Shown one piece after another: positions 13,054 through 17,021 of a DNA stretch of 21,003 nt. Below the pieces are notes generated by a model. That model had not been told where the DNA came from and ran no database searches. It saw only the letters and a list, made by a program, of their open reading frames with translations. The stretch spans positions 1 through 21,003 of the IMG/VR virus record IMGVR_UViG_3300042559_000887. One strand, 5' to 3'. Source of the DNA: a virus. The stretch's first letter is position 1; every line of letters starts with the position of its first letter. The translations under genes and the position numbers were made by a program.

Positions 13054-13971
13054 ATGAAAGAACTATGGGTAGAAAAATACAGACCTAAAACAGTTACCGG
13101 ATACGTGTTCCGTGACGAAGCACAAAAAGCACAGGTAATGCAATGGATTAAAGAAAAAACTATTCCTCATCTATTATTGAGCGGAAATGCTGGGATCGGT
13201 AAGACTACATTAGCAAAACTTTTGCTTAATGAGCTAGGAGTTAATCCAATGGACATACTAGAAATTAACGCTAGTCGAGATAACGGTGTTGATTTTATTC
13301 GATTTAAAATTGAGTCTTTTGTTCAGATGATTCCGTTTGGCGACTTTAAAGTAGTACTGTTAGACGAAGCAGATTACTTAAGCGGATCTGCACAAGCTGT
13401 TCTAAGAGGAATCATGGAAACGTATGCAGATCACTCTCGATTCATATTAACATGTAACTATCCTAATAAAATTATTCCTGCAATACATAGCAGATGCCAA
13501 AATTTTCATATTGCAAAAACAGATCAAGTTGAATTCACTGCAAGAGTTGCAGAAATATTAATTACTGAAGAAATAGACTTTGACATTGACACATTGGATA
13601 CATATGTTAAAGCAACTTATCCAGACTTGCGTAAATGTATCAACATGGTTCAACAGAACTCTGCTAATAGCAAACTTGCGTCACCTAACAAAGGAGATGT
13701 AAATGATGCAGACTGGCGGATTGAGATGGTCGAACTGTTTAAGGCTGGAAAGATTCATGAGGCTAGAAAGTTAGTGTGCGGAACTATACGTGCTGAAGAA
13801 ATGGAAGACATTTATAGATGGTTGTATGACAATCTAGAGCTATTTGGTGATTCCGAAAAGCAAGATTCTGCTGTTCTTATTATTAAACAAGGACTAGTTG
13901 ATCATACGCTTGTTGTTGATCCTGAAATAAATCTTGCTGCTACACTTATTAGATTAGCGAGACTGCAATGA
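13054..13971 (+). CDS. 44: Sliding-clamp loader large subunit (gp44-like AAA+ ATPase)
   Basis: A 305-residue protein with the standard clamp-loader architecture: the opening [10 protein letters not shown] (residues 5-14), Walker A GNAGIGKT (44-51), Walker B VVLLDEAD (100-107), sensor-1 TCNYPNK (133-139) and the SRC box with its arginine finger (SRC, 146-148). T4 gp44 has 319 residues. With the small subunit gp62 it opens the gp45 clamp and loads it on primer-template DNA, serving replication and late transcription. No gp62-like gene follows; the next gene is a ferredoxin that overlaps the stop by ATGA. The C-terminal collar domain (~205-305) is alpha-helical and less conserved, as in the family. 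Confidence 0.92.
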
Positions 13972-14318
13972 CATATCTTGTAAACGATTTATGTATTAAT
14001 TGCAAACATATGGATTGTGTAACAGTGTGCCCAGTTGACTGTTTTTACGAAGGCGAAAACATGTTAGTTATCAATCCAGACGAATGCATTGATTGCGGAG
14101 TTTGCGAACCGGAATGTCCTGCAGATGCGATTGTTGCCGACACAGCAATTAACGGAACAGAGCTTGAATTTTTACTAAAGCTGAATACTAAATTCAGCAA
14201 TGTCTGGCCAAATATTACTAAAATTCGAAAGGAAGATGTTCCTGCTGATGCTGACCAATGGCACGGCGTTGAAGGAAAAATCAAATATCTTAGTGAAAAT
14301 CCAGGAAAGGGAGACTAA
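13968..14318 (+). CDS. fdxA: 7Fe-type ferredoxin (FdxA / Azotobacter ferredoxin I-like)
   Basis: A 116-residue protein closely following proteobacterial FdxA. The opening [20 protein letters not shown] and then [30 protein letters not shown], and a C-terminal VWPNITKIR...W.GV.GKI match the family along its whole length. All nine cysteines of Azotobacter FdI are present: C9, C17 and C50 expected for the [3Fe-4S] cluster, C21, C40, C43 and C46 for the [4Fe-4S] cluster, plus non-ligand C12 and C25. The product should therefore be a functional low-potential electron carrier. The start overlaps the gp44 stop (ATGA), so it is co-translated with a replication gene. The partner enzyme is unknown; phage or host redox enzymes such as ribonucleotide reductase are possibilities. 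It is likely a host-derived auxiliary gene. Confidence 0.92.
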
Positions 14319-14320
14319 AC

Positions 14321-14587
14321 ATGAACAGAGTTTGGAAAAAATTCTTACTTAACATCAGCAAAGGTTTGTCAATGGTACTATATGTAGGCGTAACAATTTT
14401 TTTGAGCGGTATGCTAGCACTGCATCTAGGATACGATCCGGGGATGGGCATGGCTGTAGGAGCACTGGTGTTTTTAGTATTGCCAATTCTTGCAATGATA
14501 CTGCGTCAAGAATACAAGGATGCAAAACTCGAAGTTGAAAGAGAAAACCGAGAGATGCTTAGAATGATAAAGGATCCTAAATTTTGA
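14321..14587 (+). CDS. Small membrane protein with two hydrophobic helices and charged C-terminus
   Basis: An 88-residue protein with a good SD (GGGAG) before ATG 14321. Two hydrophobic stretches are predicted at ~16-35 (SMVLYVGVTIFLSGMLALHL) and ~41-61 (GMGMAVGALVFLVLPILAMI), with a cytoplasmic basic N-terminus (NRVWKKFLLNISK) and a helical, strongly charged tail (RQEYKDAKLEVERENREMLR). The form is that of a small helical hairpin with a coiled-coil-like tail. It lies between fdxA and the DHFR gene and its stop overlaps the DHFR start. A second holin is conceivable but the location argues against it. Function unknown. Confidence 0.65.
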   Translation: MNRVWKKFLLNISKGLSMVLYVGVTIFLSGMLALHLGYDPGMGMAVGALVFLVLPILAMILRQEYKDAKLEVERENREMLRMIKDPKF

Positions 14588-15078
14588 TATATGCAATCTT
14601 AGCATGTGACGAAAACTGGGGCATTGGTAAAAACGGTGCCCTTCCTTGGCCACATAATAGTGCTGATTTAAAATGGTTTAAACAATGCACTGGCAAATCT
14701 ACAGTAGTAATGGGTAGAAAAACTTGGGATAGTTTGCCTGTTAAACCTCTTCCTAACAGAAGACATATTGTGTGTTCTACTAAAGATTTATCTTGTTTTC
14801 CAGGTGCAGATGCTGTGATGAATATCGATGCTATTACCCAAACATTGCCGTACATATCAGGCGGCGACAAGTGGATTATTGGCGGTGCCGAGTTAATACA
14901 TGCTTGTTTAAATATAATCGATGAGTTGTGGTTAAGCCGTATCAATTTAACCTACGATTGCGATACGTTTCTTTCTAAGACTTTAATATCAGAAAAATTC
15001 GATTTGTATGAGAGATATTTCGATGGCGAGCTAACTACTGAAAAGTATAGAAGGATTTCAAATGAAACAATATCATGA
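14584..15078 (+). CDS. folA: Dihydrofolate reductase
   Basis: 164 residues, read from TTG 14584, which overlaps the previous stop (TTGA). TTG is the only start that preserves the first beta-strand IYAILACDENWGIG. DHFR signatures: IGKNGALPWP (residues ~14-23), substrate-binding D28 in ADLKWFK (27-33), the NADPH-binding VVMGRKTWDSLP (~41-52) and the second cofactor loop IIGGAEL (~98-104) with a cis-GG. The T4 counterpart is frd. It reduces dihydrofolate produced by thymidylate synthase, encoded by the next gene, which overlaps it by 17 nt. The pair forms the T4-type frd-td unit. In T4 these enzymes belong to the dNTP-synthesising complex and the DHFR is also a baseplate part; no such role can be inferred here. 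Confidence 0.92.
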   Translation: MIYAILACDENWGIGKNGALPWPHNSADLKWFKQCTGKSTVVMGRKTWDSLPVKPLPNRRHIVCSTKDLSCFPGADAVMNIDAITQTLPYISGGDKWIIGGAELIHACLNIIDELWLSRINLTYDCDTFLSKTLISEKFDLYERYFDGELTTEKYRRISNETIS

Positions 15079-15928
15079 CGCTTTAGAATATATTTTAAAA
15101 CACGGAAAAGATCGAGATGATCGTACCGGTGTAGGAACTAGAGGTGTGTTTGGTTATCAAATGCGTTTTGACTTGAGAGATACATTTCCAGCGGTTACTA
15201 CTAAAAAGCTTGCATGGCGTAGTGTAGTTTCAGAACTGCTATGGTTTCTTGAAGGCAGCACAGACGAACGCAGACTTGCAGAAATACATTATGAAAAACC
15301 TCGAGAAGAACTAGTAGGTAAAACAACTATTTGGACTGCAAATGCAGACAAGCAAGGGCGAGATCTAGGATATAAAAATACCGACACAGTTAAAGAACTA
15401 GGACCAGTATACGGACACCAATGGCGCACCTGGGACGCACAACTCGGATACGTTGATCAAATTGCAAATGTGTTAGAAGGTTTGCATTATGATCCGTCTG
15501 GTCGTAGACATATTGTAAGTGCGTGGAATGCTGATCGAGTAGATGTTATGGCGTTGCCGCCATGTCATACACTGTTTCAATTCCACGTACAGGACAGCGA
15601 ACTAAGCTGTCAACTATATCAACGTAGTGCAGATATGTTCTTGGGCGTTCCATTTAACATTGCAAGCTATAGTTTGCTTACACATATGTTTGCACAGTTG
15701 CTTGATCTAAAGGTAGGTGATTTTGTTTGGACAGGTGGTGATTGCCATATCTACAAAAATCATTTTGATGCAGTAGAAGAACAACTAAAACGTCAACCAT
15801 TCAAAGGTCCTACTCTAATGATGCCTGAGTTCGCTACTCTTAATGAATTAATCAATACAAAACCCACAGACTACGTATTGCTTGACTATCAATATCACGA
15901 GACCATCAAGGCAACAATGGCAGTATGA
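15062..15928 (+). CDS. thyA: Thymidylate synthase (ThyA type)
   Basis: 288 residues, close to T4 Td (286) and longer than E. coli ThyA (264). Start ATG 15062 follows SD AAGGA by 6 nt inside the DHFR gene. Key parts: the phosphate-binding RTGVGT (residues 21-26), the W..V..ELLWFL.G block (52-65), the catalytic cysteine C168 in ALPPCHTLFQF, the substrate pocket with SCQLYQRSADMFLGVPFNIA (about 182-201) and the C-terminal QYHETIKATMAV. The insertion around 71-90 (RLAEIHYEKPREELVGKTTI) is a phage/large-form feature. It methylates dUMP to dTMP with methylene-tetrahydrofolate and works with the overlapping DHFR. No intron interrupts it, unlike T4 td. ATGA links it to the next gene. Confidence 0.96.
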   Translation: MKQYHDALEYILKHGKDRDDRTGVGTRGVFGYQMRFDLRDTFPAVTTKKLAWRSVVSELLWFLEGSTDERRLAEIHYEKPREELVGKTTIWTANADKQGRDLGYKNTDTVKELGPVYGHQWRTWDAQLGYVDQIANVLEGLHYDPSGRRHIVSAWNADRVDVMALPPCHTLFQFHVQDSELSCQLYQRSADMFLGVPFNIASYSLLTHMFAQLLDLKVGDFVWTGGDCHIYKNHFDAVEEQLKRQPFKGPTLMMPEFATLNELINTKPTDYVLLDYQYHETIKATMAV

Positions 15929-16194: not shown

Positions 16195-16221
16195 ATAAAA
16201 GGGCCTTTCGGCCCTTTTATT
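16194..16221. terminator. Bidirectional intrinsic terminator between converging transcription units
   Basis: A perfect 12-bp inverted repeat, AATAAAAGGGCC / GGCCCTTTTATT, with a TTTC loop. On either strand the stem's distal A/T part gives a U-run after the GC core. It lies immediately after the + strand gene ending at 16194 and its right arm overlaps the stop codon of the minus-strand phoH, so it can end both. Confidence 0.9.
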
Positions 16222-16957
16222 ATTCGTCTCCATATACCCGAAGAACTTCTTTTACTGCTTGATGGCGTTCAATATCTTTGTATGCAAATTCGCAAACATC
16301 GATACGTTTTGCTTCAAAGTCTTTTAAGTGTCCGATAAAGTCTAATAATCCATTATCTTTGAGCCTATCAGCTTGTGCAAGATCACCTGTAACAACCATC
16401 TTTGAACCTGTGCCAATACGTGTTAATAGCATTTTCATTTGGTTCGGAGTGGCATTTTGCATTTCGTCTGCAATAATATATGCATCTTTAAATGTTCGAC
16501 CACGCATGTATGCAAGAGGTGATATTTCAATAACCCCTTCTTGAATCATGCTTTCAATTTCGTTTGCATAGAAATATTCTCTAAAAACATCAAATATCGG
16601 TCTAGTCCACGGTGCCATTTTTTGTTCTAAAGTACCTGGTAAAAACCCAAGGTCCTCGTCTGCACTGACTGCTGGTCTTGTTACGATGATTCTATCTACT
16701 TCACCATCTAAGAATTTTTTTACGGCCACCTGGCAAGCTATCATAGTTTTGCCGGTTCCTGCTGGACCAATTCCAAAGACTATGTCTTTACTCGAATCCA
16801 ATAGTTGTAACACATAAGTTTCTTGACTCTTATTTCTTGGAAGTATATCAACTGTTCTAGTTTTTTTTGGAAGGAAAGTGTTAATTTTAACAACGTTATT
16901 TGAAACAACGTTGTTAGACGAAAAAGTTGCTTGCTTTTTAGCTTTAGCTCTACCCAT
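16220..16957 (-). CDS. phoH: PhoH-like P-loop ATPase
   Basis: 245 residues, read from the ATG at 16957 because a perfect SD AGGAGG lies 5 nt upstream; a longer frame to 17020 has no such signal. It has Walker A GPAGTGKT (residues 64-71), the conserved RPAVSADEDLGFLPGTLEQK (94-113), Walker B YIIADEMQN (160-168) and TGDLAQADR (190-198), all diagnostic of PhoH. The N-terminal ~40 residues are basic and low complexity (MGRAKAKKQATFSSNN). phoH is very common in marine phages. Cellular PhoH proteins are ATPases/putative RNA helicases linked to phosphate starvation or RNA metabolism; the phage role is unresolved. It is the only minus-strand gene in the window, isolated between a terminator and a divergent upstream region. 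Confidence 0.95.
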   Translation of the reverse strand: MGRAKAKKQATFSSNNVVSNNVVKINTFLPKKTRTVDILPRNKSQETYVLQLLDSSKDIVFGIGPAGTGKTMIACQVAVKKFLDGEVDRIIVTRPAVSADEDLGFLPGTLEQKMAPWTRPIFDVFREYFYANEIESMIQEGVIEISPLAYMRGRTFKDAYIIADEMQNATPNQMKMLLTRIGTGSKMVVTGDLAQADRLKDNGLLDFIGHLKDFEAKRIDVCEFAYKDIERHQAVKEVLRVYGDE

Positions 16958-16962
16958 TAAGT

Positions 16963-16968
16963 CCTCCT
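16963..16968 (-). promoter_or_regulatory. Strong ribosome binding site of phoH
   Basis: On the minus strand AGGAGG precedes the ATG at 16957 with a 5-nt spacer. It fixes the start and is the strongest SD in the window. Confidence 0.85.
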
Positions 16969-17021
16969 GTGAGTTCGGATAGCAGGGTGTATTCCGTTGC
17001 AGGAATATCCTTCCCTGCACA

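Follow-up and report, generated by a model that had tools for sequence, protein, structure and literature searches.

The ferredoxin gene and its neighbours

The DNA analysed here, called hereafter the window, is an IMG/VR virus record of 21,003 bases. It carries a gene for a 7Fe ferredoxin of the FdxA type (Fdx), which overlaps the end of a gene for a gp44-like clamp-loader ATPase and precedes genes for dihydrofolate reductase (DHFR) and thymidylate synthase ThyA (Table 1). The interval from gp44 to the PhoH-like ATPase gene is called the slot. A scan of the window for tRNA found none, and a search of the whole record with the window Fdx returned only Fdx itself.

Table 1. Features of the window around the ferredoxin gene
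Feature	Position	Strand	Support or remark
Stand-alone DNA polymerase III alpha NTPase-domain piece, 173 aa	10088-10609		PF07733, 6e-10
gp44-like clamp-loader ATPase	13054..13971	+	PHROG clamp loader, E 7.7e-79; PA5oct and kin, 59.9%
ATGA shared by gp44 (stop) and fdx (start)	13968..13971	+	ATGA or GTGA starts in 148/153 viral copies
fdxA-type 7Fe ferredoxin	13968..14318	+	116 aa, nine conserved Cys, C-terminal DUF3470
Small ORF, 88 aa	14321..14587	+	No Pfam or PHROG family; 36% homologue in L145, a locus without Fdx
Dihydrofolate reductase (TTG start)	14584..15078	+	Pfam
Thymidylate synthase ThyA	15062..15928	+	Pfam
Small ORF, 89 aa	15925..16194	+	Homologues in 34/82 loci
PhoH-like ATPase (right end of the slot)	16220..17020	-	Pfam

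The Fdx reading frame is real and intact; the complementary strand, taken in the same codon register, contains stops. Its cysteines, at residues 9, 12, 17, 21, 25, 40, 43, 46 and 50, form the motifs C-x2-C-x4-C-x3-C(P) and C-x2-C-x2-C-x3-C(P), with one further cysteine. The protein scored 146.6 bits against the NCBIfam equivalog FdxA_Protbact (NF045490), whose cutoff is 135, and Pfam detected DUF3470 (PF11953; 3e-13, 50 bits versus 23.2) in addition to Fer4 domains. It resembles Azotobacter vinelandii ferredoxin I (FdI) and proteobacterial FdxA in its nine cysteines, its C-terminal domain and nearly its full length (residues 3-109 aligned to FdI by phmmer, E 5e-37). Unlike proteobacterial FdxA, it is encoded by a phage and is followed by thymidylate synthase and PhoH genes. 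Its AlphaFold model is weak (pLDDT 64.5); the best PDB match of this model was FdI (E 1e-8, TM 0.56), at an rmsd of 6.1. The window Fdx falls into phrog_8732 (E 9e-40, residues 1-108 of 116), a family that PHROGs lists without function; the evidence given here names the window member as FdxA-type, which suggests a function for the family.

A first-pass annotation, made from the letters of the window, had proposed a phage-encoded FdxA-type ferredoxin with all nine cysteines kept, and each part of this description was borne out. The neighbouring genes match phage families (virion proteins, an Rz-like spanin, PhoH), so that a gene with cellular homologues lies on viral DNA between viral genes, as auxiliary metabolic genes do. 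That the protein should be functional, as also proposed, is a prediction from its sequence that we consider very likely to hold: the phage Fdx is very likely a working FdxA.

Homologues of the polymerase III alpha piece were found in 46 of the 82 loci compared below, and at 45% in the phage PA5oct; in phage Phosso, an ORF annotated as DnaE-like lies in the corresponding region.

Spread, selection and origin

Relatives of Fdx are encoded in at least 599 IMG/VR stretches (599 of the 600 matches listed, E up to 1e-3); the reading frame is therefore not due to chance. The best 80 of these 599 relatives, 65-77% identical to Fdx, were kept for comparison of their loci. A gp44 homologue was located 5' of Fdx in 72 of these best 80 loci, or in 74 of 82 if the window and its own flank are counted. 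The common gene order was a PolIII-alpha-like fragment, a GroES-like gene, an exoribonuclease-like gene, gp44, Fdx, PhoH on the minus strand, two virion proteins and a lysin-like gene. When 80 loci were sampled by gp44, Fdx was present in 72; of the eight others, four stop about 1 kb or less from gp44 and four have no Fdx in the sequence stretch. Among 84 loci whose context was checked, 68 had the main context and 16 another one.

The nearest cultured relatives found by gp44 were PA5oct-type Pseudomonas jumbo phages (59.9% identity). PA5oct searched for the window Fdx gave no match. The proteins that occupy the slot after gp44 in PA5oct and Phosso were considered as degenerate ferredoxins, and this was rejected, as they matched neither Fer4 nor gp62.

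Inspection of complete viral copies of at least 95 aa (153 copies) revealed nine cysteines in all 96 distinct proteins. Fdx is under strong purifying selection in this phage clade, the median dN/dS being 0.09 over 132 near pairs, chosen at 80-99% identity and dS 0.1-1.5.

Among the best 80 cellular matches listed, nearly all came from Alphaproteobacteria, judging by record titles, with 62-70% identity. In a tree of 174 rows, 93 of 96 viral Fdx proteins formed one clade (support 87/77) inside alphaproteobacterial FdxA. The sister of this clade was a pair of single-cell alphaproteobacterial genomes, which we take to be marine and SAR11-like; the joint set of 95 rows had a support of 99/98. Both sister loci have a GC content of 29-30%, and the gene 3' of fdxA in both is, by its motif, presumably CarD-like, which makes the setting a cellular one. 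By this motif, a presumably CarD-like gene follows bacterial fdxA in L275, L280 and L288. The three viral proteins outside the main clade, from contigs G033, G041 and G037, suggest further captures. The deep forks of the tree are rough, because it was built on 114 columns only, the bootstrap had not settled and G037 has a very long branch. The donor phylogeny proposed in the first-pass annotation thus points to Alphaproteobacteria, and Fdx was probably captured mainly once, from an alphaproteobacterium.

In a collection of annotated phages, 58 records matched Fdx at E up to 1, and two FdxA-like matches among them were inspected. These records, CAKLQH020000001 and MW495066, are labelled phage and contain an FdxA-like gene, full-length or partial, with mutS, or pgi and sufS, next to it. 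The genes around look bacterial, and the FdxA-bearing DNA of both is probably bacterial.

The clamp loader and the slot after gp44

In T4, gp62 lies directly 3' of gp44. The first-pass annotation had seen Fdx as standing in the place of gp62, translationally coupled to the clamp loader. The overlap itself is real, gp44 and Fdx sharing ATGA in the window, and an overlap of 4 nt was found in 24 of the 72 gp44-sampled loci with Fdx. This adjacency favours the idea that an Fe-S protein has replaced gp62 as partner of the clamp loader, an idea that we nevertheless regard as highly improbable. Of the records searched, only T4, P-SSM7 and the cyanophage contig G044 gave a match to gp62 (PF16790 / phrog_225). 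The gp62 models, which did find the T4 control, found nothing in PA5oct, in Phosso or in 15 Fdx-bearing contigs. A search of 19 long clade contigs, of which 15 have Fdx and four do not, was equally negative. As gp62 is undetected in the clade whether or not Fdx is present, Fdx is not its replacement, and as it is undetectable in the relatives examined, the slot after gp44 is not a vacated gp62 slot. The protein is moreover an ordinary FdxA by sequence: the window Fdx has no similarity to gp62, and its matches are ferredoxin-type families and DUF3470.

The overlap does not hold as a functional sign either. The start ATGA or GTGA, common to nearly all viral fdx genes (Table 1) and to 80 of the 81 genes compared with them, is due to the protein beginning with Met-Thr. 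In many loci Fdx is apart from gp44: the spacing was at least 150 nt in 35 of 74 loci, and was mostly filled with cargo genes. Four proteins of such inserts were scanned with Pfam for a hidden gp62 and none was found: one was a nucleoside phosphorylase, one resembled a kinase, one was a 2OG-Fe oxygenase and the fourth had no family. Fdx also overlaps by 4 nt with other upstream genes, namely NadE (L467, L470), a TauD-like dioxygenase (L530, L532) and an ORF without Pfam family (L468). Among the 19 pairs of adjacent genes in a 20-gene list of the window, three share 4 nt and three share 1 nt. Most likely, Fdx is no part of the clamp loader and sits in a cargo slot for nucleotide metabolism between gp44 and PhoH.

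Several contexts lie away from gp44 and PhoH. There, Fdx adjoins NrdB-NrdA (L510), a TauD-like dioxygenase (L523, L530, L532), NadE (L467, L470) or an alternative oxidase (L469). In contig G031, which has no Fdx and forms the sister branch of the main clade in the tree of gp44, the slot holds a fatty-acid desaturase (PF00487, L324:4934-5689).

Candidate partners and role of the ferredoxin

Starting from 92 representative loci, 82 had an Fdx ORF of the cluster, and 62 of these also reached PhoH. All 62 carried a thymidylate synthase, either ThyX (46 loci, identified by Pfam) or DHFR with ThyA (16 loci, the type of the window); neither or both were found in none. ThyX started at most 3 nt from the end of Fdx in 7 of the 46 ThyX loci. 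This constant presence of a thymidylate synthase gene makes plausible one part of the role offered in the first-pass annotation, that of another redox step in nucleotide supply.

The association with ThyX was also seen in long contigs, where ThyX was present in 11 of 14 contigs with Fdx versus 0 of 13 without (Fisher p 3e-5, shared descent being ignored and the 14 being partly chosen by Fdx, since G001-G003, G005 and G006 were first found through it). This set comprised contigs of at least 100 kb, so that G007-G015 (under 100 kb) stayed out, and was freed of near-duplicates with identical gp44 (G004, G020, G022, G026, G027, G035, G043). Also outside it were the cyanophage contig G044, which has ThyX and no FdxA, and PA5oct and Phosso, which have neither. 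For the gp44-sampled loci, the whole slot was available in 67 and missing in 13 of 80. Of the 67, 41 had ThyX and Fdx, none ThyX without Fdx, 22 ThyA and Fdx, and four ThyA without Fdx, the difference being significant on all loci (p 0.02) and not on 48 distinct gp44 proteins (p 0.14). Fdx was thus absent only from ThyA slots; one locus without it, L145, has the gene order of the window minus Fdx.

Copies of Fdx beside ThyA were as constrained as those beside ThyX, with a dN/dS of 0.083 (12 pairs) versus 0.088 (130 pairs). ThyX is therefore not its sole acceptor, and Fdx should have another use beside ThyA. Relaxed selection on these copies was not seen by dN/dS or by the root-to-tip path (p 0.96); their tip branches were longer (p 0.005), a result that depends on sampling density. 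ThyX is found in 640 annotated phage records, and contigs G037, G017 and G005 carry Fdx but lack ThyX. Gains that are independent of one another are few: in four independent, well-supported pairs, ThyX goes the same way as Fdx in 2.4 on average; in these pairs ThyX and QueE lean towards Fdx and ribonucleotide reductase (RNR) leans away from it, the number being too small for significance.

Other candidate partners were counted in the same 27 long contigs, in tests that ignore shared descent. QueE was present in 12 of 14 contigs with Fdx versus 7 of 13 without (p 0.10), and radical-SAM domains, counted at E up to 0.001 (a threshold at which one weaker match in G006 drops out), had a median density of about 4.5 versus 2.3 per 100 kb (p 0.006). 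Radical-SAM genes and QueE are also present where Fdx is missing, and the radical-SAM arrays were rejected as the sole reason for Fdx, as arrays occur without it too. Some contigs are very rich in radical-SAM domains: at E up to 0.01, G003 has 21 and G004 has 20, and at E up to 0.001, G016 has 19. G003, G004, G016 and G020 have about 20 each, many of them within one stretch of 40-60 kb; G004, G016 and G020 share one gp44. A search of viral contigs with a radical-SAM query gave two loci only. The Fdx-bearing contig G017 (236.8 kb, ThyA type) gave no match to PF04055, and the candidate acceptors found in it are QueE and an RNR that resembles the one of PA5oct. In G005 (142 kb), which has Fdx, no ThyX, QueE, radical SAM or RNR was found.

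A-type carriers showed no association with Fdx (10 of 14 contigs with it, 8 of 13 without). Inspection of single loci revealed, around Fdx in L002, an Fe-S assembly gene, a weak EfeU/FTR1-like ORF, an A-type carrier and two radical-SAM genes, one above the NCBIfam twitch cutoff (NF033640) and the other just below the Pfam cutoff. L018 has such an assembly gene and an A-type carrier near Fdx, and each scores above its Pfam cutoff.

A link of Fdx to thymidylate synthesis and to other phage redox enzymes, as candidate acceptors, is likely. We favour, with a probability of roughly 55%, the reading that large phages related to PA5oct captured FdxA mainly once and kept it as an electron donor for phage redox enzymes. 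An ancestor of the clade would have taken up an FdxA of alphaproteobacterial type, mainly in one event. The protein, in which a [3Fe-4S] and a [4Fe-4S] cluster are expected from its family, would serve as a small soluble electron carrier, reduced by a host reductase (possibly ferredoxin-NADP reductase) and handing electrons to phage-encoded enzymes. ThyX would be the leading acceptor where present; where it was exchanged for ThyA and DHFR, as in the window, QueE and other radical-SAM enzymes would be the likely acceptors. A more ambitious form of this reading is that the phages run an electron-transfer chain of their own, in which a vertically inherited FdxA, assisted by Fe-S assembly factors of the phage, reduces ThyX, QueE and up to about 20 radical-SAM enzymes. 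This is tentative; if true, a redox metabolism owned by the virus would centre on Fdx, and a ThyX would have Fdx as its physiological reductant.

A narrower role, in which Fdx is dedicated to reducing the FAD of ThyX for dTMP synthesis during replication and the copies beside ThyA are leftovers of a recent exchange of ThyX for ThyA, would account for the ThyX genes in 46 of 62 loci, seven of them starting within 3 nt of Fdx, for their distribution among the long contigs and for the absence of Fdx from ThyA slots only. We hold it to be rather doubtful, since the copies beside ThyA have the same dN/dS (over 12 pairs only), keep all cysteines and show equal root-to-tip paths, and since three contigs have Fdx and no ThyX. 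A general electron donor is favoured because Fdx is constrained beside ThyA and because ThyX is common in annotated phages, a collection in which the FdxA-like matches inspected look bacterial. Fdx could alternatively be directed to the host, feeding enzymes of Fe-S biogenesis or stress response and not those of the phage. Its close kinship to host-type FdxA and the iron and Fe-S genes of L002 speak for such a role, which is nevertheless unlikely in view of the co-occurrence with a phage biosynthetic enzyme, ThyX, and of A-type carriers that are about equally common with and without Fdx.

Support of ribonucleotide reduction, one of the roles suggested by the first-pass annotation, appears less likely still as the main role. 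The slot is rich in nucleotide genes, and in one locus (L510:7137-10306) NrdB, NrdA, a small ORF and Fdx follow in a row, as an RNR operon that includes the ferredoxin; Fdx might there maintain or feed a phage RNR. Apart from this exception, the large chain of RNR was no more frequent with Fdx (5 of 14 long contigs) than without (8 of 13; p 0.26, not significant), and it was not found in the Fdx-bearing contigs G001 (199.8 kb), G016 (256.6 kb) and G018 (236.4 kb). RNR is no regular companion of Fdx.

Ferredoxins of viruses are already known. Cyanophage PetF is a soluble ferredoxin encoded by phages; it is of the plant type with a [2Fe-2S] cluster, and differs from FdxA in fold and in cluster type. 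A Lake Baikal Nitrospirota virus is described (PMC7678222) as encoding a 4Fe-S ferredoxin that is 86% identical to that of its host, is tied to the reductive TCA cycle and is proposed as an auxiliary metabolic gene; an Fe-S biosynthesis protein is mentioned there for another such virus. In contrast to the ferredoxin in that account, the one found here is of the FdxA type and 62-70% identical to the best cellular matches listed. Among Fe-S-rich environmental viral genomes of T4-like type, Nishimura et al. 2017 (PMC5332604) describe a marine one that has 12 radical-SAM genes together with paaD and an A-type carrier gene, and the word 'ferredoxin' does not occur in the main text of that paper; genes of these kinds are also present in contigs studied here. 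Searches of open-licence literature turned up no account of a 7Fe ferredoxin in a phage, of a 7Fe FdxA that is near-core in a phage clade, or of a ferredoxin as reductant of ThyX. The 7Fe FdxA is near-core in the present clade. It is a testable candidate for supplying electrons to ThyX and to the radical-SAM arrays that large T4-like viruses carry, and opens a way to ask why phages carry proteins that demand iron.

A last context concerns G037, whose Fdx is of the type outside the main clade. An alternative oxidase gene lies 7 nt from this Fdx (L469:2434-4987), and both are near a copper protein of the plastocyanin/azurin family and a cytochrome c; the set is possibly an electron-transfer module.
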